Shown piece by piece: positions 6,375-22,969 of a stretch of 64,000 bases of DNA (position 1 is the first letter of the stretch; every line of letters starts with the position of its first letter). Where the stretch lies: NCBI RefSeq assembly GCF_000330885.1, contig NC_020062.1, forward strand, positions 628,374-692,373. The letters are read 5' to 3'. A program made the translations under genes and the position numbers. The notes beneath the pieces are model-generated. The model saw nothing but the letters and a program-made list of their open reading frames with translations. It did not search any database and was not told the origin of the DNA. This DNA is from Rhizobium tropici CIAT 899 (lineage in GTDB: Bacteria > Pseudomonadota > Alphaproteobacteria > Rhizobiales > Rhizobiaceae).

Positions 6375-8333
6375 TCAGGTCAGGTGAACTTTCAGACGAA
6401 CGAACTCGTCGAGCGCACCCGGGTTCGCCAGAGCGTTGAGGTTTGCAATCGGCAGGCCGTGAATAGCGTTTCGCACGGCCAATTCGACGATCTTACCTGA
6501 TCTTGTCCTGGGGATGTCTGCCACCTGCAGTATCTTCGCGGGCACGTGCCGCGGCGACGCGCCGGTCCTGATCCTTTGCCTAATCTTCGCTTCCAAAGCG
6601 GGGTCGAGTTCGCTTCCGGCGTCAAGGCGAACAAAAAGGACAACGCGCACGTCGTCGTCCCACTCCTGTCCAATGCATATCGCCTCAACGACCTCAGGAA
6701 GCTGTTCCACCTGATTGTAAATCTCCGCTGTCCCGATCCGCACTCCGCCAGGATTTAATGTGGCATCGGATCGACCGTGGATGATAAGGCCGTCATGCGA
6801 GGTCCATTCAGCGAAGTCGCCATGACACCATACATTCTCGAAGCGCGCAAAATAGGATGCTCGATACTTTGCTTGATCCGAGTCGTTCCAGAACCCGATC
6901 GGCATGCTCGGGAATGGTCTCGTGCAAACTAGTTCTCCCTTTTCGCCGCGGATCGGACTACCGTCCTCGTTCCAAACATCGACAGCCAAGCCAAGCCCCG
7001 GCCCCTGTATCTCTCCTCGCCAAACGGGAAGGGTCGGATTGCCCAGTACGAAGCACGAGATGATGTCGGTGCCACCGGACACCGAGGCGAGTTGAAGGTC
7101 TCGTTTGAGACCGTGGTAGACGTAGTTGAAACCTTCTCTCCCAAGGGGCGAGCCTGTGGAGGCGATAACTCGCAGGGCGCGGAGGTCGAAGTTCCCTTCT
7201 GCCTTGAATTGGGCTTTGCGGAGACTGTCGAGATACTTCGCCGAGGTACCGAAGAAGGTGAAATGCTCCTCTTCGGCATACTCCCAAAGAACCTCTGCGG
7301 CTGGGGCGAAGGGCGAACCATCATAGAGGCAGAGCGTAGCACCTGAAGCGAGAGCCGACGCGAGCCAGTTCCACATCATCCAGCCGCACGTCGTGAAATA
7401 GAAGACCTTGTCACCAGGCCTGATGTCGCAGTGCAGGCGGTGCTCCTTCACATGCTGGAGCAGGGTGCCTCCCGCGGAGTGAACGATGCATTTGGGCGCT
7501 CCCGTCGTACCCGAAGAGAACATGATATAGAGCGGGTGCGAAAACGGGAATTCAACGAACTGCACCTCTCTGGGCGGATGAACCTGTTTCACTTGGTCGT
7601 AGGTCGTACTGAGCTTAAGCGAGGCTGCCAGCGCCACCGCATCGCCGCCGTATGGGACAATAAGTGAACTGCAGTCGAACTTCTCAGCGAGGGTCCTGAT
7701 CTTGTCCGAAACGTCGTGCCGCTTGCCGCCGTACCAGTAGGCGTCGCAAGCGATGAACAGCTTTGGTTCGATCTGGCTGAAGCGGTCGAACACGCCCTCC
7801 ACGCCGAAGTCGGGCGAGCACGACGACCAGATAGCTCCCAACGAAGAGGCGGCGAGCATGCAAGCCACGGTCTCCGGTATGTTCGGCAACATAGCGGCGA
7901 CACGATCTCCGGACACGATGCCCATGGCGATGAACGCCTGTTGCAAGGCGGACACCTCCGCCCTCAAGCGATCCCAGCTCCATCGATAGGCGATCTTGTC
8001 CTCTCCGCGGAAGACGATCGCATCCTCCGGACCACTGCGGCACAGGAGATTGCGGGCGAAGCTGAGCTTGCCATCAGGAAAGAAACGAGCCTGAAGCATG
8101 CTCGAGCCATCCACGAGCGTGCGCGCTCCCGGCGCTCCCTTGATGCCGCAGTAATCCCATAGCCCGCGCCAGAAGTCGCTTGGCTCATCCACGGACCACC
8201 GATGCAAATCCTGATGGTCACGAAGGTCAGTCCTAAAGGTATGCGAGCACCATTCCCGAAACGTATTCATCTCGGTATTGCGAGCGCGGTCCGTTGAAGG
8301 CGACCACGACGGATCGAGTTCGGGTAACGTCAT
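6375..8333 (-). CDS. acetoacetyl-CoA synthetase
   Basis: This 652-residue member of the acyl-CoA synthetase family activates acetoacetate with ATP and CoA. The N-terminal segment WSVDEPSDFWRGLWDYCGI is typical of acetoacetyl-CoA synthetases. The AMP-binding loop is MFSSGTTGAPKCIVHSAGG, and the C-terminal acylation lysine lies in RTRSGKIVELAVRNA. It is the last gene of the long catabolic operon. It fits with the beta-keto acid cleavage enzyme upstream, whose product is acetoacetate. The C-terminus looks complete although an IS element lies four bases beyond the stop. Confidence 0.9.
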   Translation of the reverse strand: MTLPELDPSWSPSTDRARNTEMNTFREWCSHTFRTDLRDHQDLHRWSVDEPSDFWRGLWDYCGIKGAPGARTLVDGSSMLQARFFPDGKLSFARNLLCRSGPEDAIVFRGEDKIAYRWSWDRLRAEVSALQQAFIAMGIVSGDRVAAMLPNIPETVACMLAASSLGAIWSSCSPDFGVEGVFDRFSQIEPKLFIACDAYWYGGKRHDVSDKIRTLAEKFDCSSLIVPYGGDAVALAASLKLSTTYDQVKQVHPPREVQFVEFPFSHPLYIMFSSGTTGAPKCIVHSAGGTLLQHVKEHRLHCDIRPGDKVFYFTTCGWMMWNWLASALASGATLCLYDGSPFAPAAEVLWEYAEEEHFTFFGTSAKYLDSLRKAQFKAEGNFDLRALRVIASTGSPLGREGFNYVYHGLKRDLQLASVSGGTDIISCFVLGNPTLPVWRGEIQGPGLGLAVDVWNEDGSPIRGEKGELVCTRPFPSMPIGFWNDSDQAKYRASYFARFENVWCHGDFAEWTSHDGLIIHGRSDATLNPGGVRIGTAEIYNQVEQLPEVVEAICIGQEWDDDVRVVLFVRLDAGSELDPALEAKIRQRIRTGASPRHVPAKILQVADIPRTRSGKIVELAVRNAIHGLPIANLNALANPGALDEFVRLKVHLT

Positions 8334-8354
8334 GGGATTCTCCTGATCACCGTA

Positions 8355-9167
8355 CTAAGCGCCGTCGACGGCGGCGATCTCGGCAATCGCCTGTCGAGCC
8401 ATTACTCTCACCAGGTTTTCCCGGTACGCCCGGGAGCCATGGCGATCCTCGAAAAACTCAAGAGCCGACAAATCGATGGTGTCGACGACTGATGCTTCGA
8501 ACTGGGCTTCCAGCTTACCCTCGAGTTCTTGCAGCCTAAAAGCGCCATCGGAGCCCACCCCGGTCACTGCAACGCGGACGTACGAATCCCCGCGACAGAC
8601 GAATACGCCCGCCAAGGCATATCCTGACGCCGGATGAGGGAACTTGGCATAAGCCGCTCGCTCGGGCGCTTCGAACTCGATCGAGGTTATGAGTTCGTGT
8701 TCATCGAGCGCCGTTTCGAAAATGCCACGGAAAAAGTCCGAAGACCCGATCTCACGCCTGTCTGTATGAATAGTCGCATCCAATGCCAGGATCGCGGCGG
8801 GATAGTCGGCCGCCGGATCGTTGTTGGCCAGGGAACCGCCGATGGTTCCTCGGTTGCGCACATGGCGGTCGCCGATCTTTCCGGCGAGTCGGCCTAGCGC
8901 CGGGCATAGCTCCCGAATGCGTCTTTCGTTTGCGACGGCTGCGTGCGTCGCACCCGCCCCGACGGAGAGCCTGCGACCCTCGTTCGAGATTTCCCCGAAG
9001 GCGGGAAGGGAAGTCAGATCGATCAAGTCGCTCGGTGTGATCAAACCGAGCTTCATCGACGGCAGCAATGTCATGCCGCCCGCAAGGAACTTGGGATCGC
9101 TCGATGAAGCCAACATCGCGCTGATCAGGTCAATTGCCGACGGTCTGTGGAGGGTGAAGGGGTTCAT
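8355..9167 (-). CDS. molybdenum hydroxylase, FAD (medium) subunit
   Basis: The 270-residue protein is the FAD-binding subunit of a xanthine-dehydrogenase/CO-dehydrogenase-type enzyme. It carries the two FAD motifs AGGMTLLPSMK (near residue 30) and TIGGSLANNDPAADYPA (near residue 110). The CoxM-type C-terminal domain follows. It passes electrons from the iron-sulfur subunit to the acceptor. It lies nine bases after the small subunit, and the order large, CoxG, small, medium is kept in this operon. Confidence 0.9.
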   Translation of the reverse strand: MNPFTLHRPSAIDLISAMLASSSDPKFLAGGMTLLPSMKLGLITPSDLIDLTSLPAFGEISNEGRRLSVGAGATHAAVANERRIRELCPALGRLAGKIGDRHVRNRGTIGGSLANNDPAADYPAAILALDATIHTDRREIGSSDFFRGIFETALDEHELITSIEFEAPERAAYAKFPHPASGYALAGVFVCRGDSYVRVAVTGVGSDGAFRLQELEGKLEAQFEASVVDTIDLSALEFFEDRHGSRAYRENLVRVMARQAIAEIAAVDGA

Positions 9168-9176
9168 GTGCAGCTC

Positions 9177-9668
9177 CTATGCCACTTTCGAAACGCTGCT
9201 CATGGCGTATTTCTCGGCAGCGTCGAGAATGGCGGACACGATGTTCTGGTATCCCGTGCAACGGCAAAGATTGCCCTTGAGCTCCTGCCTGACGGTCGCC
9301 TCGTCCAGAGGGCCCTGGGCCTTCTCGATGATGTCGATCGCCGTGATGATCAGGCCGGGGGTGCAATAGCCGCATTGAAGCGCATGGTGGCGATGAAACG
9401 CCTCCTGCACGCGATGGAGCCTCTCCCCGTGCGCCACGCCCTCGATCGTGGTGATAGAACACCCGTTCGCGCCCGCGGCGAGGGATGTGCAAGACTTCAC
9501 GGTGTCGCCATCGATATTGACCACGCATGCTCCGCATTGGGTGGTGTCGCAGCCCACATGCGTTCCGGTCAGCCCGAGGTCTTCGCGAAGGAAGGTCACC
9601 AGCAGACGGTTGTCGTCGACGGTTTTCGTCACTTTCTTGCCGTTGACGACGGCTTCGATTCTGGTCAT
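9177..9668 (-). CDS. molybdenum hydroxylase, [2Fe-2S] small subunit
   Basis: A 163-residue protein with both clusters of this family. The plant-type ferredoxin cysteines are 40, 45, 48 and 60 (HVGCDTTQCGACVVN). The C-terminal four-helix cluster cysteines are 99, 102, 135 and 137 (CGYC and CRCTGY). It relays electrons from the molybdenum site to FAD. The open frame extends upstream into the CoxG gene, but ATG 9668 gives the normal length and follows a GGGAGGAG-like ribosome site. Confidence 0.93.
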   Translation of the reverse strand: MTRIEAVVNGKKVTKTVDDNRLLVTFLREDLGLTGTHVGCDTTQCGACVVNIDGDTVKSCTSLAAGANGCSITTIEGVAHGERLHRVQEAFHRHHALQCGYCTPGLIITAIDIIEKAQGPLDEATVRQELKGNLCRCTGYQNIVSAILDAAEKYAMSSVSKVA

Positions 9669-9691
9669 TTCGCTCCTCCCTGGGAATGCGT

Positions 9692-10138
9692 TCAGGCGCC
9701 GCGGGCGATCTCGGCGATGCGTTCGAAGAACTGGCCGGAGAGCTTTTTGGATGTGGATTCGATCAGCCTGCTCCCGAGCTGGGCCAGCTTGCCGCCGATG
9801 GCCGCGTCCACAGCGTAATGAATGGTGGTGCCGCCGTCCGTCTCTTCGAGCCGGACATTCGCTCCGCCTTTGGCGAACCCTGCGATACCGCCGCTTCCTT
9901 CGCCGGAAATTCGGTAACTTTCCGGGGCCTGCACATCCTGCAGCTTGACCCGGCCGTTGAACTTTGCCTTCACCGGACCGATCGCGATGGTCACGGTTGC
10001 CGCATAGCCCTCGTCGACCGCTTCGAGCGATTGGCATCCCGGGATCGCCTGGCGCAAAACGTCCGGGTCGTTGATGAGCGCCCAGACGGCCGCCCGCGGC
10101 TTTTCGACGAAGAAGTTGCCTTCGAGATTCATGTGCAT
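9692..10138 (-). CDS. CoxG-like SRPBCC protein
   Basis: This 148-residue protein belongs to the CoxG family with a START/SRPBCC fold. The features seen are the N-terminal EKPRAAVWALINDPDVLRQAIPGC and the C-terminal IGGKLAQLGSRLIESTSKKLSGQFFE. In CO dehydrogenase systems CoxG is proposed to help recruit or anchor the enzyme at the membrane. It is encoded between the large and small subunits, seven bases after the large subunit. ATG 10138 or the ATG two codons later could be the start. Confidence 0.88.
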   Translation of the reverse strand: MHMNLEGNFFVEKPRAAVWALINDPDVLRQAIPGCQSLEAVDEGYAATVTIAIGPVKAKFNGRVKLQDVQAPESYRISGEGSGGIAGFAKGGANVRLEETDGGTTIHYAVDAAIGGKLAQLGSRLIESTSKKLSGQFFERIAEIARGA

Positions 10139-10145
10139 TTCCTAT

Positions 10146-12476
10146 TCATTGGGTTTGGGTGTGGGCCGCATGGAGCGCATCCCATAGCTTTCCCGGTGTC
10201 ACGGGCATGTCGATGTCCAGCACGCCCGCCGGGCGAACCGCGTCCAGGACTGCGTTGACGATCGCCGCGGGGGTTCCGATCGTGCCGGACTCGCCGATGC
10301 CCTTCACACCCAGCGGATTGCTCTGGCTGGGTATTTCGATGAGTTTCGATCTGATCGTCGGCATGTGTTCGGCACGGGGAAGACAGTAGTCCATGAACGA
10401 GCCGCTGATGAGCTGACCCTCGTCGTCGTAGACGACTTCCTCGCAAAGCGCTTGCCCGAGGCCCTGGGCACAACCTCCATGGATTTGGCCTTCGCAGATC
10501 ATGGGGTTCAAAGCCTTGCCGACATCGTCCACCGAAAAGAACCGATCGATGGTCACGACACCCGTGTCCGGGTCGACCTCCAGTTCGACGACTTGGCTGC
10601 CGTTGGGGAAGTTCGGTTGAGCGCCTGGCTTTCCGGCAGAAGTGCCTTCGCCGTACAAGCCGAGCGAAAACCGCATGACCGGACCAGCCGGGAGATAGAA
10701 GAACTTCGCCACGTTCTGGATGGGCATGCTTTCGTTGGAATTCCGAACCTTGAAAAGTCCGTCTTCGAAATAAACGTTCGCCTCCTCGGCCTTGAGCAGC
10801 AAGGCCGCCATTTTCGACGCCTTGACGATGACATCGTCGACGGCCCGCTTGAGGGCGGTGCCCCCGAGCATGGAACTGCGAGCCGCGAATGTTCCGCGAC
10901 CAATCAGGACCTTATCGGTGTCACCCTGGACGAAGCGGATGTCCTTCTGGTCCATGGAGAGCCAATCGGCCACCATCTGCGTGAAGACGGTCGCGTGCCC
11001 TTGGCCATGGGAATGCGTGCCCGCTATGATGGTGAGGGTACCAGAAGGATCGAAACGCACTTCCATCCGCTCGTTCATCACGCCAGCGATCTCGATGTAG
11101 GACGTGATGGAGCGCCCCCTGAGCCGACCGCGTCTTGCGCTTTCCGTCTTGCGCGCCTCGTAGCCGATCCAGTCCGCGAGTTCGGCGCATTCATCGGCGA
11201 GCCGTTCGAATTCGCCGCTGTCATAGGTCAACCCTGCGGGGTTGGAATAAGGCATCTGGTCGGGTTTGACATAGTTGCGCCGGCGGAACTCACGAGGATC
11301 GATCCCGAGCTCGTAGGCGGCCTCGTCCATCAGGCGTTCGATCGCATAGGCCGCCTCTGGTCTTCCAGCGCCGCGATAGACCGACATCGGACAAATGTTG
11401 GTGAAGACTGCCTGCGTCTGCAAATCGACCGTCGGCACGTCATACGTGCCCGGTATGAGTTGCATCGAAAAGAAGAGCGGCGGCGTCGCAGTTCCCCAGA
11501 AATAGGCCCCCAGATTGTGGAACGCCCGGGCTCGGATGCCTAGAATCTTGCCGTCTGCGTCGAGAGCCAAATCCGCGTAGACTATCTGTCCCCGCCCCTG
11601 AGTGTCGGTCTGCATCGACTCCGAGCGTGTTGCGATCCATTTCACCGGACGCCGCACCCTGCGTGAGGCCCATAGAACAATGGCGTCTTCCGGATGGATG
11701 TGCGCCTTGAGGCCGAAGCCGCCGCCAACGTCTGGCGAGACAACCCTCAGCGTCGACTCGGGAATTTTCAACACGACGGAGGCCAGTACACGTCGAAATC
11801 CGTGAGGGTCCTGCGAACTTGTATAGAGAGTGAATGTATCGGTTCCGGTGTCGTAGTCTCCCAAACATCCCCTCGGCTCCAGCGACGCCGGTGTCACCCG
11901 GCCGCTCGCCAGCCGCCGGGATACAACGAGACTTGCCCGCTCGAACGACGCCGCAGTCTTTTCTGCATCACCGAATTTCAGATGCACGGAGAGGTTTCCT
12001 GTCTGGTTCTCCGGCCAGATGACAGGGGCTCCCTCCGCCAATGCGGCTTCAGCATCGACAACCGCAGCGAGGGGAGCGTATTCCACACACACGTGTTCCG
12101 CCGCGGCTCTGGCCTCATCGACCGTCTCGGCAATGACCACCGCAACGCGCTCGCCGACACAGCGGACGCGGTCGGCTACGAGTATGGGACGAAGTGTTGC
12201 GAAGCCTTTGGGGCCGCCCCAGACTTCAGGCATGAAGAAGGGTGGCACCGAGCCAAGACCGTCGGCAGCCACATCCGCTCCGGTCAGGACGGCGATCACT
12301 CCCGGCATCTCCGACGCCGCCGAAATGTCGATCGACAGAATGTCCGCATGTGCGTGGGGAGACAGTACCAACGCCGCATGACACTGCCGCGGCAGGGAAA
12401 AGTCATCGACGTACTTTCCCTCGCCAGTCAGAAAGCGGCGATCTTCGATCCGTAAGGCGGGTTTTCCTATCGTCAT
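10146..12476 (-). CDS. molybdenum hydroxylase large subunit, form II (CoxL-like)
   Basis: The 776-residue catalytic subunit binds the molybdopterin cytosine dinucleotide cofactor and would hydroxylate an aromatic or N-heterocyclic carbon with water as oxygen source. Family marks are SPDVGGGFGLKAHIHPED, the C-terminal GGCAQGLGQAL and the catalytic glutamate in VKGIGESGTIG. The active-site loop reads VYRGAGRPEAAY, which is the form II type. Genuine CO dehydrogenases (form I) have a loop with a cysteine, so CO is an unlikely substrate. No maturation gene such as coxD or coxF is seen nearby. Confidence 0.9.
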   Translation of the reverse strand: MTIGKPALRIEDRRFLTGEGKYVDDFSLPRQCHAALVLSPHAHADILSIDISAASEMPGVIAVLTGADVAADGLGSVPPFFMPEVWGGPKGFATLRPILVADRVRCVGERVAVVIAETVDEARAAAEHVCVEYAPLAAVVDAEAALAEGAPVIWPENQTGNLSVHLKFGDAEKTAASFERASLVVSRRLASGRVTPASLEPRGCLGDYDTGTDTFTLYTSSQDPHGFRRVLASVVLKIPESTLRVVSPDVGGGFGLKAHIHPEDAIVLWASRRVRRPVKWIATRSESMQTDTQGRGQIVYADLALDADGKILGIRARAFHNLGAYFWGTATPPLFFSMQLIPGTYDVPTVDLQTQAVFTNICPMSVYRGAGRPEAAYAIERLMDEAAYELGIDPREFRRRNYVKPDQMPYSNPAGLTYDSGEFERLADECAELADWIGYEARKTESARRGRLRGRSITSYIEIAGVMNERMEVRFDPSGTLTIIAGTHSHGQGHATVFTQMVADWLSMDQKDIRFVQGDTDKVLIGRGTFAARSSMLGGTALKRAVDDVIVKASKMAALLLKAEEANVYFEDGLFKVRNSNESMPIQNVAKFFYLPAGPVMRFSLGLYGEGTSAGKPGAQPNFPNGSQVVELEVDPDTGVVTIDRFFSVDDVGKALNPMICEGQIHGGCAQGLGQALCEEVVYDDEGQLISGSFMDYCLPRAEHMPTIRSKLIEIPSQSNPLGVKGIGESGTIGTPAAIVNAVLDAVRPAGVLDIDMPVTPGKLWDALHAAHTQTQ

Positions 12477-12503: not shown

Positions 12504-13280
12504 TCAGTTGTCGGCCAATACGGCGGCGAGCAGGCTGTTGACATGCGGTGCCGCCTCGAAGAGCGGGATGTGGGCCGCTCCGGGGATTGTCGTTACCGCG
12601 ACACCTCCCAGGGCGGCTGCGAGTGCTTCCGAGGCGGCGCGGGGCGTTGCCTCGTCGAATTCGCCGAGGGCGATCGTTACAGGCATTCGCAGGGCAGAGG
12701 CGTGCGCCCTGCAATCAGCATCGGCAAGGGCTTCGCATGAAGCGGCATAGCCCTCGTCCGGAGTCCGCGAGAGCATTGTCGCAAGTGCCCGCCCCCCCAC
12801 GGATTGCTGAAAGCCTGGGGTCGTCCATCTCGACAGAACCGCCTCCGCAATGGATGGCAGACCATCCTCGCGGCATTTTTTGGCGCGCTCGCGCCACATC
12901 GGCGGATTTAGGCTGACGAGATTCGAATCCAGGAGCGTGAGGGTCTTCACCCGATCCGGACGCCCGGCCGCGAACGCCTGGGCGACAAGGCCGCCGATCG
13001 AAATGCCGCAGACATGATAGCTATCCAGGTTCAAGGACGCGACGATCGCGTGGACATCGTCGGCCAGGGATTGAATCGAGACCGCGGACCGTGACACCTC
13101 ACTCAGTCCGTGCCCCCTCAAGTCGGGGCAAACAATGAAGTTGTCCGCGGACAGGGCCTGGACCTGCTTCTCCCAAACGCTGGCGCAAGTGCCCAGCGAA
13201 TGGATGAGTATCAGAGCAGGTTTGGCGGGATTGCCATGGGTTTCGGCGTGGAGGACGTGGTCCTCAAATTCCACGAACAT
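12504..13280 (-). CDS. alpha/beta hydrolase, 3-oxoadipate enol-lactonase-like
   Basis: A 258-residue PcaD-like hydrolase. The oxyanion loop is IHSLGTCASVW, the nucleophile Ser94 lies in GISIGG, the acid is in GEFDEATP (about residue 210) and the histidine is in PGAAHIPLFEA (about residue 237). Relatives open lactones or hydrolyse C-C or amide bonds after ring cleavage. The gene sits between the Mo-hydroxylase and the FAD monooxygenase, with a 2-base gap to the latter, so it probably acts on a ring-cleavage product. PcaD specificity itself is not proven. Confidence 0.8.
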   Translation of the reverse strand: MFVEFEDHVLHAETHGNPAKPALILIHSLGTCASVWEKQVQALSADNFIVCPDLRGHGLSEVSRSAVSIQSLADDVHAIVASLNLDSYHVCGISIGGLVAQAFAAGRPDRVKTLTLLDSNLVSLNPPMWRERAKKCREDGLPSIAEAVLSRWTTPGFQQSVGGRALATMLSRTPDEGYAASCEALADADCRAHASALRMPVTIALGEFDEATPRAASEALAAALGGVAVTTIPGAAHIPLFEAAPHVNSLLAAVLADN

Positions 13281-13282
13281 TC

Positions 13283-14407
13283 TCAGAATTCCTGGTTGAG
13301 TTGGACGAGCGCCTTCTCGACGACGGCGGTCTGTGCTTCCGGAGCCGCTTGCTCCCTTTCCAGCCGGCTGATTTCCAGCGAGGAATCCACCACCAGTTTG
13401 CAGCGCCCGTAGCGGCGCGACATGAATGCATCCAGCGCGGTTGCGACATCCGGAGCTTTCGAAACCTCCTGTGCCAATACGAGGCCGTCTTCGATCCCCA
13501 TGCCGGCGCCGGAGGCGAGTTGCGGTGTGGTGGCGTGTGCCGCGTCGCCGATCAATACGACATTGCCGTTGCTCCAGTTCCCGTCCACGAAAACCGTTTC
13601 GAGCGGCCGGCAGATGATGTTCGACGTCTCCTTCAAGGCCTGACGGACCTCGGCCAACACACCCCCGTAGCCCTCCATGAGGTCATGGAGGATCTGGTGC
13701 TGTCCTGCCTCGTCGCGGCGCAGCGGCTCCCGCTGTGCTTCTAGGTAGAACATGTACATCTGGTTCTTCGAGACCGGGTTCAAGCCTACCTTCGCGCGAC
13801 CACCGAGGAAGAAGGTACGCCGTCCGATCGACGGATGCCTTTCGGTCATCAGCCGCCAGCAGAGCTGTCCGGCGTAACGTGGGGCGGAGGTCTGCGGAAA
13901 CAGGCGTGTGCGCGTCTCCGAGTAAATGCCGTCGGCACCGACGATCAGATCGTATTCGGCGACTTTGCCGTTTCCGAAGCGAACTTGGCTCCTGGTCTTC
14001 CCGGAAACGATGCTTTCGACTTCCACGCCGAGGAGCGGCGCAACGCCGATCTTCTGCAGGCGGCGTTGCATGATGTGATGAAGAACCGGACGGAGGATGC
14101 CGCCAGCGCTCGGAATGCCACCGAGCGCCTCGTTCGTTGTATCCACGGTGAACAGGTGTTTGCCCTGCGCCGAGCAGATGTCGATGCCGTCGGCCGCATA
14201 GCCTTCCTCCAGCACCTCGTCGAGTATGCCCAGCCGCCCCATCGCTCGCAGCGTCGGCCCCGTAATCGTGATGCCCGCCCCGTAGACCTTCCACTGCGGA
14301 TCGCGCTCGCAGAGATCGACGGCGATCCCTCGGTCGCGCAGTGCGATCGAGGCGGCCATGCCGGCTATCCCCCCGCCCAAGACAAGGATTTTGATGTCTT
14401 TCAGCAT
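13283..14407 (-). CDS. FAD-dependent aromatic monooxygenase
   Basis: This 374-residue single-component flavoprotein monooxygenase has the dinucleotide motif GGGIAGMAASIAL at the start, the DG motif in LIVGADGIYSETR (about residue 155) and the GD motif in VVLIGDAAHATTPQLASGAG (about residue 290). Such enzymes use NAD(P)H and oxygen to hydroxylate phenols or hydroxypyridines, as in salicylate, 6-hydroxynicotinate or 2,6-dihydroxypyridine hydroxylases. Directly abutting LigB, it is expected to produce the dihydroxylated ring that LigAB opens. Confidence 0.87.
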   Translation of the reverse strand: MLKDIKILVLGGGIAGMAASIALRDRGIAVDLCERDPQWKVYGAGITITGPTLRAMGRLGILDEVLEEGYAADGIDICSAQGKHLFTVDTTNEALGGIPSAGGILRPVLHHIMQRRLQKIGVAPLLGVEVESIVSGKTRSQVRFGNGKVAEYDLIVGADGIYSETRTRLFPQTSAPRYAGQLCWRLMTERHPSIGRRTFFLGGRAKVGLNPVSKNQMYMFYLEAQREPLRRDEAGQHQILHDLMEGYGGVLAEVRQALKETSNIICRPLETVFVDGNWSNGNVVLIGDAAHATTPQLASGAGMGIEDGLVLAQEVSKAPDVATALDAFMSRRYGRCKLVVDSSLEISRLEREQAAPEAQTAVVEKALVQLNQEF

Positions 14408-15253: not shown

Positions 15254-15552
15254 TTGTCGTCTCCTTCTTTCATGAGGCTGCGCAGTGCGGCGAGCGAAAC
15301 GTCCTCGGGGATTTTCACGCCGATGCAATGCGCCCGCAGGAGATAGGGGTTGACGCCGGCTTCATAGAGCGCGGCCACATCGTTGCCGCTGATCTTCGCC
15401 TTCATCTCGGCGGTCAGCTTGTAGCGGGAGAGGTATTGGTCCTTGTCCTGATTGTAGGCTGCCAGGTCGTCGGGCTTGTGATGCAGCTCGAAGAGGACCT
15501 TGTCCAAAAGGTAGGCCTCCGTCGTCGGCATCATCAATCGCCAGTTGCTCAT
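15241..15552 (-). CDS. extradiol dioxygenase alpha subunit (LigA-type)
   Basis: A 103-residue small subunit with the LigA-like helical fold, including LTAEMKAKISGNDVAALYEAGVNPYLLRA in its middle; the GVNPYLL segment is a family signature. In protocatechuate 4,5-dioxygenase the alpha chain caps the active site of the beta chain and shapes its substrate pocket. The frame is open upstream, but ATG 15552 with an AAAGGAAAA ribosome site gives the usual length. It precedes and overlaps the LigB-type gene. Confidence 0.85.
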   Translation of the reverse strand: MSNWRLMMPTTEAYLLDKVLFELHHKPDDLAAYNQDKDQYLSRYKLTAEMKAKISGNDVAALYEAGVNPYLLRAHCIGVKIPEDVSLAALRSLMKEGDDKWLK

Positions 15553-15568: not shown

Positions 15569-16705
15569 TCATTGCAGGCGCTGTTCGATCCAGCGCACAA
15601 TGGTGGGAACCGTATGTGGCCCGAACCCCATGTGGCCGCCGGGAAAGAGGCGCACCGTCTTGGGGCTGCCATGCTCGAGAAGCAGGTGAATGTCCGCGAT
15701 GGGGCACTGCCTGTCGTCCTTGCCGTTTACAAGAAGCAGCGGCGCGGAGGGACGGTCGAGAATGCCCTGGTCGAGCAGGGACAGGATCCGGAAACCTTCG
15801 GCGTATTCCTCGTCGTTCGACGCGCCGAGCATCCGGCTGCGGGTTTCGACCAATTCCATGAGGTAGCTGTCGGGGTACCTGGACTGTTCGACCCAGTCGC
15901 GCTGGAACATATAGTGGACGCCGCCACCCCAGTTCACGGCACCGCGAAGCGCATCCGGAATGAGATGGGCGAGTTTCGTCGCCCAATGGCCGCCAAACGA
16001 TCGTCCGATAAGAACCAAGCGAGTGCCGTCGAGGTCCTCGTTCTGCCGAGCCCACTCGATGACCGGAAGAAACTGTTTCTCGCCATCGGCTTTGGCCTTG
16101 ATGGGCGACTCCCCGGTCCCAACGTTGTCCATGGCAATGGACGCGATGCCCGCTGCCGCCAGCTGTGAGGAGAGCTCGGTCATCTCCTCTTTCCAGGCAT
16201 CGACACCGCCCCACATAATGACGACAGGCGGCTTGGCGACATCAGTCGGCTTCCTCACATAGAAGCGCACGCGGTCACCATGAGTCCCTTCCTGAAAAGG
16301 AACCGTCACGGGTTCGATCGGTGGCTCGGCCAATCGGCCGAAATTGCCGTACGCCTCGAGCTCCAGTTCGTAGCTGGCCAACTTGTGGGGGTGGTTGGGA
16401 CACGGGAAGCGCCCGAGGAAAAAGAACCCATAGGCTTGATAGTAGGCGGCACGAGCGGCCTCGAGGTCGCCGCGCTCTTCGGCCAACCGACCGTTGGCGA
16501 GGAATTCCTTACCGGATGCGACCCACGATTTTGCCCAGTTCGCACCGTCGAGGCCTTCGAGCCGATCGATAGCCCTGATTGTCTCCGCCGGGTCGGTGAG
16601 ACCGAGGGGATGCACCCGCTTGCCAAGACGGTCCTTCATCCATGCCTTGGCGTTCTCAAGGCTCCTAGGCCCGCCGGGATCGGTTGTCACGTTCTGTACG
16701 TTCAT
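15569..16705 (-). CDS. FrsA-like alpha/beta hydrolase (C-C hydrolase candidate)
   Basis: The 378-residue protein has an N-terminal helical cap region (residues 15-125) and a C-terminal alpha/beta hydrolase core. The nucleophile is Ser236 in IGRSFGGHW, with an acid in NGKDDRQCP (about residue 320) and a histidine in PGGHMGFG (about residue 359). This layout fits the FrsA/DUF1100 esterases and 2,6-dihydroxypseudooxynicotine hydrolase, which breaks a C-C bond beside a dihydroxypyridine. Given the neighbouring ring-cleavage genes, a carbon-carbon or side-chain hydrolysis is likely. The exact bond is unknown. Confidence 0.78.
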   Translation of the reverse strand: MNVQNVTTDPGGPRSLENAKAWMKDRLGKRVHPLGLTDPAETIRAIDRLEGLDGANWAKSWVASGKEFLANGRLAEERGDLEAARAAYYQAYGFFFLGRFPCPNHPHKLASYELELEAYGNFGRLAEPPIEPVTVPFQEGTHGDRVRFYVRKPTDVAKPPVVIMWGGVDAWKEEMTELSSQLAAAGIASIAMDNVGTGESPIKAKADGEKQFLPVIEWARQNEDLDGTRLVLIGRSFGGHWATKLAHLIPDALRGAVNWGGGVHYMFQRDWVEQSRYPDSYLMELVETRSRMLGASNDEEYAEGFRILSLLDQGILDRPSAPLLLVNGKDDRQCPIADIHLLLEHGSPKTVRLFPGGHMGFGPHTVPTIVRWIEQRLQ

Positions 16706-16721: not shown

Positions 16722-17588
16722 TCATTGCAGTCTGGAAAATGTTTCCCTCAAGCCATCGGCGGTCTCCAAGGGAAGGCTCAGCGAGGTGAGCGCCTTCGCC
16801 ACAACGGAGACGGAGGCGGCGTTCGAGGGAGCGATCGCGCCCGTCGGAAGATGGAGATTGTTCTCGAACCCGATCCGCGCGTTGCCGCCAAGGAGTGCGG
16901 AGGCCACGACGCAGGCAGCTTCATGTTGCCCGAAGGCGCAGACGCTCCAATGTGGCGCGTCATCGGTCCGTACGAATGGCAGAACGTCCGCCGGAATGGA
17001 GGTTTGGCTAGCGCTATAACGCCCGAGTACATACAGCAAGGGGACCTGATCGCTGACAAGGCCGCGCGACCGCATGTCGCGAAGAGCCTCCTGGTCAACC
17101 TGGTCATACAGGATGATCTGCGGTGTGACGCCTTCCCGCGACATCCACTCCATAAGCCTTGCGAAGGGTCTCTCGTCGCTCTCGTCGCGGACGATCTCCC
17201 GCAGCGCGATAGAGGCCGCTTCCGGCCTGACCGCGCGGACGGTCTCGATCATCTCTGATGGAGAATAGATGCCCAGGGATTCAGTGGTGATCTGCACCAC
17301 GAGTTCCCGACCGACTTGCCGTCTGATCGCGCTCGTCGCCTCGCGATAGGCCTCGGCGTCGAGCGAATGACGGCCTCGATCGTCCCGGACATGCACGTGG
17401 ATGAGACTGGCTCCCGCATCCCGGCACTCGGCGGCGCAGCGCGCCAACTCGTCTGCCGACAGCGGCAGGGCCGGGTGGTCGGCCTTGGTCTTCCGTCCGC
17501 CGTTTGGGGCAACGGAAACCATGACCCTACGCTGCTCTGAAGAGCCAGCCTCATCCCGTGAGGGTATGTCTTGGAAGGACATGGTCAT
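16722..17588 (-). CDS. beta-keto acid cleavage enzyme (BKACE, DUF849)
   Basis: This 288-residue enzyme resembles 3-keto-5-aminohexanoate cleavage enzyme. It has a TIM barrel with zinc-binding His64 and His66 in LIHVHVRDDRGRHSLD and the N-terminal VSVAPNGGRKT loop. BKACE enzymes combine a beta-keto acid with acetyl-CoA, giving acetoacetate plus a new acyl-CoA. That product fits the acetoacetyl-CoA synthetase at the end of the operon. The gene overlaps the SDR gene upstream by four bases. Confidence 0.88.
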   Translation of the reverse strand: MTMSFQDIPSRDEAGSSEQRRVMVSVAPNGGRKTKADHPALPLSADELARCAAECRDAGASLIHVHVRDDRGRHSLDAEAYREATSAIRRQVGRELVVQITTESLGIYSPSEMIETVRAVRPEAASIALREIVRDESDERPFARLMEWMSREGVTPQIILYDQVDQEALRDMRSRGLVSDQVPLLYVLGRYSASQTSIPADVLPFVRTDDAPHWSVCAFGQHEAACVVASALLGGNARIGFENNLHLPTGAIAPSNAASVSVVAKALTSLSLPLETADGLRETFSRLQ

Positions 17589-18346
17589 GAGGAAAATCCG
17601 CCGTCGACCATGATGGCCGACCCATTCGTGTAGCGACTGCGATCGGAGGCCAGGAAGCAGACTGCTTCGGCGACCTCTTCAGGCTTGGCATGACGGCCCA
17701 AGGGTATTTGCTCGTCGAAGAAGGCTCCGGCATCCCGGCCGAGGACGACCGACATGGTCTTCTCGGCAGTACGCATGAACTCATTGTCGACCGGACCTGG
17801 ATTGACGGTATTGACTCGAATGCCGCGATGGCCGAGCTCCTTCGACAACCCCCTCATCAGTCCGGTGAGAGCGTGCTTCGCCATGACATACGAGCAGTTC
17901 CCGGGAACTCCCTTCAGGCCGACGATGCTCGACATGATGACGATGCTGCCGCCGTCGCGCATATGAGGCACGGCATACTTGCAAGTATAGAAGCCGCCAT
18001 AGACGTGTGTCTTGATGATCTTGTCGAACATGTCCTCTGGATAGTCTGCGATTGGGCTAAGCGGTCCATCGTTGCCCGCATTGCTGAAGAGGACGTCGAT
18101 GGGGCCGAACGCTTCTACCGTTTGCAGAATAAAGTCGCGAACCTGTGCAGGGTCCGTGACGTCGGCCACGCAGGACCCCGTCCGTGCTGGATCGAATTCC
18201 CGAGCGACCTCGGCGAGCCTGGCGGCATTGAAGTCAACCAGCATCACCTTCGCGCCTTCGCCTGCGAGCAGTTTCGCCGTGGCGAGGCCGATGCTTCCCG
18301 CCGCGCCAGTCACGATGCAGGTTTTGTTTTCCACAAGTCCCATCAC
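17585..18346 (-). CDS. SDR-family NAD(P)-dependent dehydrogenase
   Basis: A classical 253-residue short-chain dehydrogenase. The cofactor loop is VTGAAGSIGLA, the structural NAG is in FSNAGNDGP, and the catalytic Ser-Tyr-Lys are in MSSIVG and SYVMAKHAL. The acidic residue after strand 2 (MLVDFNAARL) favours NAD(H). It probably oxidises a hydroxy acid to the keto acid consumed by the BKACE next to it. It overlaps the permease gene upstream by four bases, which couples transport and catabolism in one transcript. Confidence 0.88.
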   Translation of the reverse strand: MMGLVENKTCIVTGAAGSIGLATAKLLAGEGAKVMLVDFNAARLAEVAREFDPARTGSCVADVTDPAQVRDFILQTVEAFGPIDVLFSNAGNDGPLSPIADYPEDMFDKIIKTHVYGGFYTCKYAVPHMRDGGSIVIMSSIVGLKGVPGNCSYVMAKHALTGLMRGLSKELGHRGIRVNTVNPGPVDNEFMRTAEKTMSVVLGRDAGAFFDEQIPLGRHAKPEEVAEAVCFLASDRSRYTNGSAIMVDGGFSS

Positions 18347-19347
18347 AAACTCCTACCGGGCATTTCTTCGGCCATCAGTGTTGCGGGCTGGGCGGGCGCG
18401 ATCCGCATCCTGGTGGACAGGAGGGCGCGGATGCATGGCCATAGACCCTTGGGGGCGACGAGGATGGTGGCAATAGCCACGATTCCCATCGCGGTGAGGT
18501 GCCAGCTGCCGGAAAGGCCAAAACCTACCATCATCAGTTGGCGCAGGCCGTAGTAGAGCAGCGTGCCGACGACAGGCCCGCCGATCGTGCCGATACCCCC
18601 GACGATCACGATGAAGATCATCGTCACCACCCAGTTCACATCGAAACCGCTCGACACCGTGACGAACATCGCGCCCGAATAGTTTATTGCCCCCGCCAGG
18701 CCGCAGACGGCTCCGACGGTAAGCAAAGCGATAAGGCGGTTTCGACGGACATCGACCCCGATGCTGACGGCCGCGAGTTCGTTGTCACGGACGCCCATCA
18801 TCGCCAGCCCCGTTGGAGACCGCATCAGGAGGCCGATCCCGAAGACCGTAATGATGGCGAGGCCGGCGCTCAGCCAGAACGTGATTCTCAGAAACAGGTC
18901 GAAGTCGAGGTCGCGCGTCGCCTCGAGCGTGAGCCCGGTGACGTTACCCAGATTGGGGGCTATGAGTACCAGCATCGCGACGACCTCTGCGATGACCCAG
19001 GTGCTGATGGAGAAATAGGCGTCGCGCAGCCGAAGCAGGAGCACCGAGCTGAGAGCTGCAAGCGCCATTCCCGCAAGCGGCCCCGCGACGAGCGCCGGAT
19101 AGGGCGAAACTCCCAACGCATTGGATGTGTAGATCGCCGCATAAGCGCCCAGGCCCACGAAGGCCTGCAGTCCTAGCGACACGAGGCCCACATACCCGGC
19201 CATCAGGTTCCAGGCGCTCGCCATGGCGAGCATCAGGCATGCCTCGCCGACCACCGCGGTGACGCCTTCGTCCGCAAGCAACGGCATCGTGGTTGCTGCG
19301 ACGACAGCGAGAATGAAGATCGAGATTTCGGAATGTCGCCTGGTCAT
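18343..19347 (-). CDS. ABC importer permease, LivM type
   Basis: The 334-residue inner-membrane protein has about eight to ten hydrophobic segments and the LivM-type region LMRSPTGLAMMGVRDNELAAVSIGV, followed by FIVIVGGIGTIGGPVVGTLL. It is one of two permeases of a branched-chain-amino-acid-type importer. In this operon the substrate is more likely an aromatic acid or heterocycle than an amino acid. It overlaps livH- and SDR-type neighbours by four bases on each side. Confidence 0.88.
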   Translation of the reverse strand: MTRRHSEISIFILAVVAATTMPLLADEGVTAVVGEACLMLAMASAWNLMAGYVGLVSLGLQAFVGLGAYAAIYTSNALGVSPYPALVAGPLAGMALAALSSVLLLRLRDAYFSISTWVIAEVVAMLVLIAPNLGNVTGLTLEATRDLDFDLFLRITFWLSAGLAIITVFGIGLLMRSPTGLAMMGVRDNELAAVSIGVDVRRNRLIALLTVGAVCGLAGAINYSGAMFVTVSSGFDVNWVVTMIFIVIVGGIGTIGGPVVGTLLYYGLRQLMMVGFGLSGSWHLTAMGIVAIATILVAPKGLWPCIRALLSTRMRIAPAQPATLMAEEMPGRSL

Positions 19348-20210
19348 GCCCGCGCTCCAAAGAAGCCGTTCGGGCGCGCAAGCATGAACGCCAGAAAGAG
19401 GAGGTGAGCGTAGAGAAAGCCGGCATTCGGGTTGAGCTTGAGGCCGACGAGTTGGGCTATCCCCAAGGCGATGCCGCCGAGCATGGCTCCCCAGAACGAG
19501 CCCAAGCCGCCAAGTACGACCACTTCGAAGGAAATGAGAAGCCGCTCAACGCCGGAGAACGGCGTGAAGGTCGTGCGCATGGCAAGCAAGACGCCTGCCA
19601 CTCCCGCCAATGCGAACGAGATGCCCGTGACAAGGCTGTAGACGCGGTCCGGCGTAATGCCCATGACCCTGGCGATCTCCGGATTGTCCGCGGTCGCGCG
19701 AACCATACGCCCGAACTTCGTCTTCTTGAGCGCGAATTCGAGGCCCAGGAAGAGAGCAATAGCTATGAGCATGGTCGTGACTGGGAGAACGCCAATCTTC
19801 ATTCCGGCGATGTCAAAGCTCTGTTGCGCGAAATCGCCCTGCTTGATCATCCTTGGGCTCACGCCGAACCCTTCCGCCATCATGTTGCGCGCGACCACGG
19901 AGATGCCGAATGTCAGCAACAATGGGGCGACCATGTTGTTGAGCTTTAGCGCACGATTGATCAGCCCTGCCTGCAGCACATACCCCAAAGCGAACGAAAC
20001 GGCCGTCACGGGAACAATGAGCAGCAGCGGGTGCAGGAACGGCAGTAGTGTCGATGCGCCCAGTCCGATGAACGCCGCCAGGGCGATGAACTCGCCATGG
20101 GCAATGTTCACGATGCGAGTGACACCGAACACGAGCGCGAGGCCGACACCGAACAAGCCGTAAAGCCCGCCCAGGAGTGCGCCGTTGATGATCGTCGAGA
20201 CCCAGGTCAA
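19344..20210 (-). CDS. ABC importer permease, LivH type
   Basis: A 288-residue inner-membrane permease with the conserved N-terminus LLGGLYGLFGVGLALVFGVTRIVNIAHGEF and the later VVLGGLGSFWGAMLGGIALG coupling region. The frame is open upstream, but the likely start is TTG 20210. It overlaps the stop codon of the livF-type gene (shared TTGA) and has GGGGGAG about eight bases upstream. With the LivM-type protein it forms the transmembrane channel. Confidence 0.88.
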   Translation of the reverse strand: MTWVSTIINGALLGGLYGLFGVGLALVFGVTRIVNIAHGEFIALAAFIGLGASTLLPFLHPLLLIVPVTAVSFALGYVLQAGLINRALKLNNMVAPLLLTFGISVVARNMMAEGFGVSPRMIKQGDFAQQSFDIAGMKIGVLPVTTMLIAIALFLGLEFALKKTKFGRMVRATADNPEIARVMGITPDRVYSLVTGISFALAGVAGVLLAMRTTFTPFSGVERLLISFEVVVLGGLGSFWGAMLGGIALGIAQLVGLKLNPNAGFLYAHLLFLAFMLARPNGFFGARA

Positions 20211-20920
20211 TGCATCATCTCCCCCAAACCAAAATAGGCACGCGCCAACTGCTCGTCGGTCAGGTCGGCACTGTTCCCATGAAGGGTCATCCGCCCTTCG
20301 AGTAGGCAATAAAGTCGGCTAGCGAACGATCGAGCACGATGTACGTCCTGTTCGACAAGGACAATGGAAGTCCCGTAACGTGAGATCGCCTCGAAAGATC
20401 GGTAGATTGCTTCCACCGCCACCGGGGCCAGCCCGAGCGATATTTCATCGCAGAGCAGAACTCTGGGGTTCGACATGAGCGCGCGGCCGATTGCCACCAG
20501 CCCCTGCTGCCCGCCGGAAAGCGTGTTCGGACGCTGTGAACGCCGCTCTTCGAGCAAGGGAAACAGCTCGAAAATGGACTCGAGGTTCCAGTGTCCGGGT
20601 CGCCCGGAGAATGCGCCGATCTTGAGATTTTCCTCCACATCCAGCGACGGAAAGAGCGCGCGCCCCTCGGGCACCAGAGCGACGCCGGAACGCGCGATGT
20701 CCTCGACCTTCCGACGCGTGATCTCCTTCCCGTCATAGGTCACACGACCTTCAACTCGGCCAACAAGACCGGCTATGCTGCGAAGCAAAGTCGTCTTGCC
20801 AGCGCCGTTCGCCCCGACGACTGCGACGCATTCGCCCGCGTCCAACGACAGCGACAGACCGTGCAGCGCGCGCAGATCGCCGTGGAACGCTTCCAGATTT
20901 TCGACCTCAAGCAGCTTCAT
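20207..20920 (-). CDS. ABC importer ATPase, LivF type
   Basis: The 237-residue ATP-binding subunit has Walker A GANGAGKTTLL near residue 36, signature LSGGQQGLVAIGRAL and Walker B VLLCDEISLGLAP. The signature reads LSGGQQ as in LivF proteins. It drives import together with the LivG-type ATPase, whose gene it overlaps by 14 bases. Start ATG 20920 gives the family length. Confidence 0.9.
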   Translation of the reverse strand: MKLLEVENLEAFHGDLRALHGLSLSLDAGECVAVVGANGAGKTTLLRSIAGLVGRVEGRVTYDGKEITRRKVEDIARSGVALVPEGRALFPSLDVEENLKIGAFSGRPGHWNLESIFELFPLLEERRSQRPNTLSGGQQGLVAIGRALMSNPRVLLCDEISLGLAPVAVEAIYRSFEAISRYGTSIVLVEQDVHRARSFASRLYCLLEGRMTLHGNSADLTDEQLARAYFGLGEMMH

Positions 20921-21647
20921 CGGCGGGTATTCCCATGTAGATTTCGCGAACGAGCGCGCTGTTCATCACATCGTCAGGGAGGCCCTCCATGACCTTTCGT
21001 CCGAAATTGAGAACCATGACGCGGTCCGCGACGGCCTTGAGCGCGTGCGGAATGTGCTCGATCCAGATGATCGAGTGCATGGCCTTCAGCTCCTGGATCA
21101 GCTCGATCAGTGACGCAGTCTCGGCGTCGGTGAGTCCGCCGGCTATTTCGTCGAGCAGCAGGAGGCGAGCGTTCGAGGCGAGGGCTTTCGCGAGTTCCAG
21201 ACGCTTTCTGTCGAGCAGGCGGAGCTTGCCCGCATGCATGTCCGTCACTCCGGAAAGCCCGGTCCGCCGAAGGGCTTCCGTAGCCAGCTCCCGGGCGCGC
21301 GCGCCGCGCAAACGGGCGGCGGAGTAGGACGCCAGGAGCACGTTCTCGTTCACCGTCAGATTCTCGAAACATTGCGGTATTTGGAATGCCCTGACGACAC
21401 CCATTGAAGGGCGTCGATGAGGAGACAACTCGGACAGCTCGTTGCCGTCGAGCACAATGGAGCCGCTGTCCTGCCGGACCACCCCGGTGAGCAGATGGAA
21501 CAATGTACTCTTTCCGGCTCCGTTCGGTCCGATCACGCCCAGGCAGCCGCGATGCGGCAGTTCCAAGTCGATGTCATCGGCGACGACAATCGACCCGTAG
21601 CGCTTCTTGAGACCTGATATGCGCAGCAGCACATCGCTCGCGGCCAT
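20907..21647 (-). CDS. ABC importer ATPase, LivG type
   Basis: A 246-residue ATPase with Walker A GPNGAGKSTLFHLLTGVV and the LivG-type segment VVRAFQIPQCFENLTVNENVL. The signature reads KLRLLDRKRLELAKAL, with LLDRKR in place of the usual LSGGxx-like LPYGxQR, and Walker B is LLLLDEIAGGL. ATG 21647 starts five bases after the binding-protein gene ends. The odd signature motif is worth noting but does not rule out activity. Confidence 0.87.
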   Translation of the reverse strand: MAASDVLLRISGLKKRYGSIVVADDIDLELPHRGCLGVIGPNGAGKSTLFHLLTGVVRQDSGSIVLDGNELSELSPHRRPSMGVVRAFQIPQCFENLTVNENVLLASYSAARLRGARARELATEALRRTGLSGVTDMHAGKLRLLDRKRLELAKALASNARLLLLDEIAGGLTDAETASLIELIQELKAMHSIIWIEHIPHALKAVADRVMVLNFGRKVMEGLPDDVMNSALVREIYMGIPADEAA

Positions 21648-21652
21648 TTCCT

Positions 21653-22969
21653 TCAGCTCCGAATCTTCGAGAGCGGCACCAACTCGGCCGTGGGCGTCAC
21701 GCCACTCGTGCCGGCGTTCACGATGACAAGCTCGAAGGGGAATTTGCCGTCCTTGGTCTTGCGCCATTGACCGCCGACGAGTTTTTGGATCGCGACGTTC
21801 TTCACGGGCGATCCCGCGAAATCCAAGGGGCCGACGACCGTGTCGACTTTGAGCGAGGCGATGGAGTCCCGGATCGATTTGTTATCCTTGGGATCGGACG
21901 CACCTCTAAGGGCCGCGAAACCAACCTCCCAAAGCGAGTGGGAGATGCCAAGCGGCTGCGTCCACTGCGCGCCCGTGTCCTGTTCGAACTCGTCGGCCAG
22001 TTCCCGCGCGCTCTGCCCGGTCATCGAAGACTTGTAAGGGAGAGCGGGGTTCCAAAGGACCTCGGTCGACATGCCGTCGCCGAGATCGCCGAGGCCCTCG
22101 AGCGCGCTGGGGAAGAGGAACGGACCTGCGACGGTTACCGCCTCAGGTTGGAAGCCGTTCTGCGCAGCCTGGTTCCAGAAGGTTGCAAAGTGATTGGGAT
22201 AGCAGCTGCCAGACAAAATGCCGACGTCGCCGCCGATCAACTCGGCTATCTGATTGGTGAAGTCATCGTTGTTTAGCTGGAAGAAGCCTGTGTTGACTTC
22301 GGTGTAGCCGTTCTTCTGCAGGAGAACCGGCAGGCCATGCTGACGATCGGCGAATCCGCGCGCCGCGGCGGAGTCCATGTAGATCGTTCCGACCTTCTTG
22401 TTGGTCTGCATTCCGTTCCACATATCGGTGTAGAGTTTGAAAACGTCACCCGCGCCGATGCAATAGTGGAAGGTGAAGGGGAAGCCCTTGTCTGGAGCGC
22501 CGTGCCTCCCAAACACCCAGGCTTCCCAAGGCGACAAAGTCGAAATCATCGGTACGCCACGGGCATCCGCGAGTTCGGCTGCAGCGCCCGAAGAATTGTC
22601 GCCGTCGTCGGTAAGAATCAGGTCGCACTTCTCGCGCAGGACGAGATCGCGCGCCGCCACGGCCGTCTGGTTGGGGTCGGACTGGTTATCCTTTACGATG
22701 ATCTCGACGGCATAATTCGTTCCGCCGATATCGAGGCCATTGGCCACAGATTTTTGAACGCGTTCAACAATCCATGAATCTACGGCCCCGAAATCCGATC
22801 TCAGACCAGATATGCTCGCCAGCATGCCGATCTTCAGGGAGCGCGTTTCAGTCCGGGCGAGGAGGGGAGCCGGAAATTGGGCGATAGCTCCTGCGGCAAT
22901 CGCTCCACCGATCCTGGCGAGTGCGCCTCTTCTGGTCAGCTGCGTGTCGGATTTGTCGTGTTTCGGCAT
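21653..22969 (-). CDS. ABC importer substrate-binding protein, branched-chain type, Tat-type leader
   Basis: This 438-residue periplasmic binding protein is of the Peripla_BP_6 type. The leader carries LTRRGALARIGGAIAAGAIAQF, a twin-arginine-like start followed by a hydrophobic stretch and an ALA-type cleavage site, so Tat export is plausible. The mature part starts with LKIGMLASISGL, typical of LivJ-like proteins. It is the first gene of the operon; GGGAGGA before ATG 22969 decides the start. The family binds amino acids, amides and aromatic acids, and here it should bind the pathway substrate. Confidence 0.87.
   Translation of the reverse strand: MPKHDKSDTQLTRRGALARIGGAIAAGAIAQFPAPLLARTETRSLKIGMLASISGLRSDFGAVDSWIVERVQKSVANGLDIGGTNYAVEIIVKDNQSDPNQTAVAARDLVLREKCDLILTDDGDNSSGAAAELADARGVPMISTLSPWEAWVFGRHGAPDKGFPFTFHYCIGAGDVFKLYTDMWNGMQTNKKVGTIYMDSAAARGFADRQHGLPVLLQKNGYTEVNTGFFQLNNDDFTNQIAELIGGDVGILSGSCYPNHFATFWNQAAQNGFQPEAVTVAGPFLFPSALEGLGDLGDGMSTEVLWNPALPYKSSMTGQSARELADEFEQDTGAQWTQPLGISHSLWEVGFAALRGASDPKDNKSIRDSIASLKVDTVVGPLDFAGSPVKNVAIQKLVGGQWRKTKDGKFPFELVIVNAGTSGVTPTAELVPLSKIRS

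Follow-up and report, generated by a model that had tools for sequence, protein, structure and literature searches.

The window analysed here is a stretch of 64,000 nucleotides from Rhizobium tropici CIAT 899, corresponding to positions 628374-692373 of the megaplasmid pRtrCIAT899c; the published genome description gives replicons of 3,837,060, 216,610, 549,467 and 2,083,197 bases (PMC3557214). It contains a putative operon of 17 genes, predicted to serve the catabolism of an aromatic compound. The gene families, the gene order and a core that recurs in related bacteria are established by our searches. Our reading of them, to which we assign a probability of about 0.45, is that the operon may encode a horizontally shuffled aerobic meta-cleavage pathway for a polyhydroxylated phenolic, probably of the acyl or chromone/flavonoid type, which ends in acetoacetate. 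From the first gene to the last, the operon consists of:

21653..22969, minus strand: periplasmic binding protein of a LIV-type ABC importer (Peripla_BP_6, 131.6 bits)
20907..21647, minus strand: LivG-like ABC ATPase (ABC_tran)
20207..20920, minus strand: LivF-like ABC ATPase (ABC_tran)
19344..20210, minus strand: LivH-like ABC permease (BPD_transp_2), start codon uncertain and chosen from sequence
18343..19347, minus strand: LivM-like ABC permease (BPD_transp_2)
17585..18343, minus strand: short-chain dehydrogenase (SDR; adh_short_C2)
16722..17588, minus strand: beta-keto acid cleavage enzyme (BKACE)-family protein, Arg/Ile/Asn subfamily by active-site comparison (PF05853, 210.5 bits)
15569..16705, minus strand: putative Ayg1/FrsA-like C-C hydrolase with Ser236, Asp331 and His358 (PF06500, 57.8 bits)
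15241..15552, minus strand: LigA-type small subunit, extradiol dioxygenase (PF07746, 31.1 bits)
14408..15253, minus strand: LigB-type catalytic subunit, extradiol dioxygenase (PF02900, 141.6 bits)
13283..14407, minus strand: flavin adenine dinucleotide (FAD)-dependent aromatic hydroxylase (FMO; FAD_binding_3 and NF005313 above cut-off; AlphaFold 2 model with a mean predicted local distance difference test score, pLDDT, of 91.9)
12504..13280, minus strand: PcaD-like alpha/beta hydrolase (TIGR02427, 216.1 bits; 2xua, 5.8e-37)
10146..12476, minus strand: molybdenum (Mo)-hydroxylase large subunit (MoCoBD_1/2; best solved structures 8uem, 1t3q and 7dqx)
9692..10132, minus strand: CoxG-like protein (open reading frame, ORF)
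9177..9668, minus strand: Mo-hydroxylase 2Fe-2S subunit (Fer2_2; NCBIfam)
8355..9167, minus strand: Mo-hydroxylase FAD subunit (FAD_binding_5)
6375..8333, minus strand: acetoacetate-CoA ligase (AACS; TIGR01217, 948.3 bits against a cut-off of 520.9)

A first-pass annotation, made from the bare sequence, had described this near gapless run of genes from 22969 to 6375. ORF prediction together with Pfam and NCBIfam scans recovered all 17 at that place, on one strand and in the same order; the scans assigned 16 of the 17 proteins, and the CoxG-like gene was identified only as an ORF. All 17 frames are uninterrupted and lie close together. The small gaps and overlaps also held, with distances of -14 to +27 bases when the TTG at 20210, preceded by a purine-rich stretch, is taken as the LivH start. 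Spacing was computed with a provisional LivH start at 20243 (-37), for which the TTG substitutes a 4-base overlap. No terminator-like site was found inside any intergenic gap of the operon.

Conserved copies of the gene set, for which the first-pass annotation had proposed a search, were collected by a LigB scan of genomes (29 loci), to which 2 plasmid loci and 2 further genomes were added. L050 and L051 (LigB 30-35% identical, core absent around it), the duplicates L064, L066, L068 and L069, and the short match loci L054-L063 were excluded, which left 31 related loci. Among the plasmid matches of about 87% identity, H2 was taken in, H3 is L067 and H1 was left out; the degenerate L047 was included, and so was L025, in which the hydrolase is split and of FMO only fragments remain. 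Presence was called with hand-set identity thresholds, and flanks were compared over at most 10-14 kb with some contigs shorter, so that the counts are lower bounds; those for LigB and the hydrolase are high by design because the loci were found through one or the other. The recurring core consists of LigB (31 loci), the Ayg1/FrsA-like hydrolase (30), LigA (30) and FMO (28). It is frequently accompanied by the PcaD-like hydrolase (25/31), the BKACE-like protein (20/31) and a TetR-family regulator (19/31). The Mo subunits (10/31), CoxG (9/31), SDR (2/31), an orthologous LIV binding protein (1/31) and intact AACS (0/31) are variable. Rhizobium sp. SG_E_25_P2 (L023) shares 16 of the 17 genes in unchanged order at 73-96% identity, and of AACS only residues 1-204 match. 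Since 16 genes keep their order there, the gene set is, on this comparison, beyond chance. The presence counts and L023 together indicate that the core is the stable part, to which importer, SDR, Mo enzyme and AACS are attached as variable modules.

The hydrolase had been labelled FrsA-like, and the match to PF06500 bears out that family; its nearest relatives in sequence and predicted fold, however, are the Ayg1/Wdyg1 acyl-arene C-C hydrolases. It has the FrsA-like fold, the Ser-Asp-His triad and the hinge Asp of Ayg1/DHPON-type enzymes, and is predicted to share their activity; the residue equivalence to Ayg1 was set by spacing from the published description (PMC11165489). A GLDG at residues 51-54 was considered as the Ayg1 GLDG motif and dropped, as that motif lies at 186-189 of Ayg1 and its equivalent by spacing is GVDA at 167-170. 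Ayg1 and Wdyg1 (8qd1, 8qd7) shorten polyketides in fungal pigment biosynthesis and are 26% identical to the CIAT 899 protein, which in contrast sits in a degradation operon. The family is large (of 8000 scored candidates, 1741 proteins match at E<=0.001) and has only generic names in the source annotation of the 120 rows listed. Matches to the hydrolase occurred in 4 of 385 genomes of the class at E<=1e-40, the best of the other three being 40% identical, and in 7 of 394 genomes of the family at E<=1e-100; both counts include CIAT 899. This family membership argues for a polyphenol.

Ring cleavage is assigned to LigAB. Both subunits score above the Pfam cut-offs, and His12, His57, His59, His123, His188, Glu234 and Glu235 of LigB are invariant in 31 rows, as expected of a class III extradiol dioxygenase. 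By analogy with known LigB enzymes, some of these residues probably bind iron. No PF02900 match other than LigB occurs in the CIAT 899 genome. LigB was found in 13 of 100 relatives, CIAT 899 included, with a single other ortholog (84%) and the rest at 35% identity or less. Protocatechuate 4,5-dioxygenase and gallate dioxygenase share the LigA and LigB families and the two-subunit make-up, but LigB falls below the curated cut-off of all 11 NCBIfam models it matched, which cover named substrates (protocatechuate, gallate, 3-carboxyethylcatechol); the best score was 179 against a cut-off of 290 bits, and the gallate model gave 139 against 412. The FMO model lies among class A hydroxylases with close scores (HpxO/TrlE 41.5, 3-hydroxybenzoate 6-hydroxylase 40, MHPCO 38, 2,6-dihydroxypyridine hydroxylase 37.6), and by sequence against solved structures MHPCO (86.4 bits) and HpxO (86.0) tie; these comparisons point to no particular substrate. 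Ser94, Asp209 and His237 of the PcaD-like hydrolase are invariant in 23 rows, and its TIGR02427 score lies below the 255.85 bits of the 3-oxoadipate enol-lactonase equivalog.

The BKACE-like protein retains the Zn ligands, which are conserved in all cluster copies. Glu14, Glu143 and Asp231 of KCE are replaced by Arg32, Ile159 and Asn243, and this set is invariant in 20 of 20 cluster copies. The KCE numbers, some of them presumed, were fitted to the alignment with the BKACE-like protein, and KCE E143 was equated with E171 of BKACE15 by a constant offset. The E171L exchange in BKACE15 is reported to abolish activity, and this Glu is the proposed catalytic base (PMC11961710). In KCE, Glu14 is described as touching the amino group of its substrate from the lysine pathway (PMC10470551); Arg at this site therefore suggests that the substrate is negatively charged at its distal end. 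Among 29 other BKACEs the Glu is kept in 20 and the Asp in 23, and six have the Arg/Ile/Asn set; we thus rejected the idea that the changes are unique to the cluster. Because six share the set and five of these lie beside a class III aminotransferase-like ORF, the comparison points to a subfamily that has a chemistry or substrate of its own rather than to a dead enzyme; a normal beta-keto acid role is possible for it. The five (L102, L103, L104, L105 and L107, neighbours judged by sequence) are possibly a separate cluster of beta-amino acid type, and L102, L103 and L105 also have a large TRAP-like permease ORF close by. The other BKACE of CIAT 899 (G000:C4:1007840-1008706) is canonical, with PEIEAF and RVGLEDN, and adjoins an ORF resembling 3-hydroxyacyl/carnitine dehydrogenases, again judged by sequence. 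Across the 31 loci, acetoacetate-activating genes and BKACE were not significantly associated (Fisher p 0.53, 2 loci).

The large subunit of the Mo enzyme is closest to a CoxL-like structure, followed by quinoline 2-oxidoreductase (440 bits) and 6-hydroxypseudooxynicotine dehydrogenase (414 bits). Aerobic carbon monoxide dehydrogenase of form I was rejected, as the CoxL equivalog scores 509 bits against a cut-off of 991.15 and the loop reads VYRGAGR; we take AYRCSFR to be the form I loop. The CoxG-like protein has a 79% match in L052 that is annotated as carbon monoxide dehydrogenase subunit G, and a counterpart of the SDR (55% identity) is present in Novosphingobium AAP83 (L049). The operon AACS is a second copy, 64% identical to a chromosomal paralog. 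When the genomes of clusters without Mo genes were searched (16 of 21; L025, L047, L053, L065 and L067 were left out), 7 had no match at E<=1e-100 and the other 9 one of at best 46% identity. A megaplasmid molybdopterin oxidoreductase gene is reported as slightly down at low pH, and could not be mapped to the window (PMC5936775).

Taken as a phenol pathway, the genes would act as follows, where the order of FMO, LigAB and the hydrolases, like the substrate, is what we infer. The LIV-type importer would bring in the compound or its acid. The Mo-hydroxylase would serve as a variable front end, in whose place other loci may use a P450 with ferredoxin or C-glycoside-cleaving genes. FMO would add a hydroxyl ortho to an existing one, and LigAB would then open the ring. 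The Ayg1-type serine hydrolase would cut a C-C bond beside a carbonyl in a retro-Claisen-type step, and the PcaD-like hydrolase may open an enol-lactone or a product like it. A beta-keto acid, probably with a distal negative charge, would be the substrate of the BKACE-like Zn enzyme, and AACS would activate the acetoacetate. TetR would regulate the operon. The first-pass annotation had called this complete aromatic catabolism: the gene families and the recurring core support aromatic catabolism, and completeness was not borne out.

Besides the hydrolase, two relatives speak for a polyphenol. In L042 and L044, genes for C-glycoside deglycosylation lie immediately upstream of the core, each time with a GMC oxidase gene. 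The deglycosidase has a PF19906 beta subunit and a TIM-barrel partner whose best solved match is 7dnm (4e-65), with the DgpC1-named chain 9m3b lower; we presume CarA/B/C to be the component names of such systems. Several observations weigh against a polyphenol. The model loop at Asp331 of the hydrolase (331-333) has a pLDDT below 50, and Foldseek places plain FrsA above the nicotine enzyme. The GMC gene, a candidate C-glycoside oxidase by its neighbours and position, has a chloramphenicol-inactivating oxidoreductase as its best solved match. The C-glycoside link occurs in 2 of 31 loci, and is perhaps one event because these are sisters on the LigB tree (93/93, not starred). A PF19906 search of the CIAT 899 genome, positive in both carriers, gave no match. 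In the published RNA-seq account of CIAT 899 with apigenin, all 15 induced genes are on the symbiotic plasmid (PMC4782375), so apigenin, as reported there, is not an inducer under those conditions. The BKACE-like protein lacks the proposed Glu base and has Asn in place of Asp231, and AACS is intact in none of the other loci. The TRAP, MFS and NMT1-type transporters of relatives, some of them marine, fit a small acid as well.

Among described systems, the flavonoid A-ring clusters ifc of Variovorax and fde of Herbaspirillum share a flavin hydroxylase and an extradiol dioxygenase with the operon (PMC11069340, PMC11303751), and the isoflavone cluster ifc also has a hydrolase similar to 2,6-dihydroxypseudooxynicotine hydrolase (PMC11069340); the resemblance to ifc is a further point in favour of a polyphenol. 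Their dioxygenase (FdeC/IfcB) is, however, of the glyoxalase type (PMC11069340), which also counts against our reading; within the operon LigAB was the only ring-cleavage gene found, the cupin IfcD enzymes have no operon counterpart, and the available passages on ifc/fde do not name BKACE, AACS or Mo genes. The anaerobic phloroglucinol cluster of Clostridium scatologenes has a BKACE-family lyase and acetoacetate activation in common with the operon, but is described as oxygen-independent, with a reductase and a cyclase-family ring opener (PMC10470551). It was rejected because reductase and cyclase are not in the operon; a cyclase-family gene lies near the core in 2 of 31 relatives. In agreement with the first-pass annotation, which knew of no pathway with this exact set, we recognised no description of it in the open-access literature, among the matches listed and as judged from titles, beginnings of abstracts and passages.

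The strongest competitor is a pathway for a small phenolic acid or aldehyde with one ring, e.g. a trihydroxybenzoate- or resorcinol-type acid, which we consider possible yet rather unlikely. Here the Mo-hydroxylase or SDR would adjust a side chain, FMO and LigAB would open the ring, and both hydrolases would convert a muconate- or pyrone-type product to a beta-keto diacid. PcaD-likeness and the Arg at the Glu14 site suit such a 3-oxoadipate-like diacid. The transporters beside the core (MFS 11, TRAP 5, NMT1-type 3 and orthologous LIV 1 of 31) belong to classes that often serve small acids. So do two others: L025 carries LIV genes that are not orthologous, placed behind its PcaD-like gene, and L035 a binding protein that resembles TctC (judged by sequence). 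Some relatives are marine by name, e.g. Maritimibacter. The Ayg1-like hydrolase does not fit well, as characterised members of its family act on acyl side chains of larger phenolics, and neither do the C-glycoside-cleaving genes of two relatives.

An N-heteroaromatic substrate (nicotine-, hydroxypyridine- or quinoline-like) would be attacked by the Mo-hydroxylase, then by the flavin hydroxylase, and then opened by extradiol cleavage. It accords with the quinoline and pseudooxynicotine relatives of the Mo enzyme, with the hydroxypyridine oxygenase MHPCO as best solved sequence match of FMO, level with HpxO, and with the amidohydrolase-family gene near the core in 6 of 31 loci. The Arthrobacter nicotine pathway shares three families (2,6-dihydroxypseudooxynicotine hydrolase, 2,6-dihydroxypyridine hydroxylase and Mo dehydrogenase), but each of its enzymes is more distant from the operon enzymes than other families are; to our knowledge LigAB, BKACE and PcaD are not part of it. 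A mimosine-degrading Rhizobium has the LigB-family PydA (PMC7356986), and a mimosine/3,4-dihydroxypyridine route, for which PydA was considered by family description and not by sequence, is a weak candidate. The Mo-first, pyridine-like chemistry favoured at first pass has thus lost ground, with Mo genes in only 10 of 31 loci and the hydrolase, Mo subunit and FMO model each closer to other families (the FMO sequence being a tie), and we consider it improbable. That the block is a patchwork with no single coherent function, in which insertion sequences added a partly idle importer, SDR, Mo enzyme and AACS to an old core, would agree with the flanking integrase and transposases, the rarity of importer and SDR, the truncated AACS of L023 and the position of LigB away from other Rhizobium (89/91, not starred), but is very improbable in view of 17 open, tightly spaced frames and the order kept in L023. 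This ranking, with the polyphenol first, follows from the evidence for and against each substrate.

The surroundings of the operon contain the following genes:

4370..5572, plus strand: tyrosine integrase adjoining the operon (Phage_integrase)
5599..6303, minus strand: IS240-type transposase, 71 bases downstream of the operon (DDE_Tnp_IS240)
23239..23910, minus strand: TetR-family regulator (TetR_N)
25111..25605, plus strand: transposase integrase-core ORF on the opposite side of the operon (rve, 110.6 bits)

The TetR gene is separated from the operon by 269 bases on its upstream side, shares its strand and, because it recurs with the core in 19 loci, probably belongs to the unit as its predicted regulator. 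In L023 (819-1478) it is divergent, as if this end were inverted. On the LigB tree the window groups with L023 and Aquabacter, and Rhizobium RU36D pairs with Devosia enhydra (93/93); this node and that of the window are below the starred level. Horizontal movement of the block is likely, and the 17-gene block is probably mobile. Other neighbours of the core are AraC regulators (9/31), CoA-transferase (2/31, with split matches in a third, L024), P450 (2/31) and, in Novosphingobium humi (L053, 8023-10544), a divergent hydroquinone dioxygenase large-subunit gene (PnpCD_PnpD_N) with an aldehyde dehydrogenase. In Falsiroseomonas (L035), a gene ahead of TetR and core (6764-7507) encodes an arylmalonate decarboxylase-like protein (PF17645, 32.2 bits). 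Elsewhere in the window, 25691-36019 carries genes for a peptide-type ABC transporter, together with those for a gamma-glutamyltranspeptidase, a DUF1028 protein and an M81 metallopeptidase, and 55951-57387 encodes a protein of glycosyl hydrolase family 16 that has an RTX repeat.

In general terms, the loci might represent a new alphaproteobacterial aerobic route, a doubtful generalisation so far, in which an Ayg1-type retro-Claisen hydrolase, of a type known from the synthesis of fungal melanin, and LigAB dismantle acyl-phenols or C-glycoside aglycones, acetoacetate is released via an altered-site BKACE, and a mobile core is combined with interchangeable front ends (Mo enzyme, P450 or C-deglycosylation). 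CIAT 899 is described as a studied bean symbiont used in inoculants (PMC3557214), and its operon is open to direct gene-deletion and growth tests. Once identified, the substrate would give a name to a route that alphaproteobacteria share for an aromatic, perhaps plant-derived, compound, and would also put to the test whether BKACEs of the Arg/Ile/Asn subfamily really cleave beta-keto acids.

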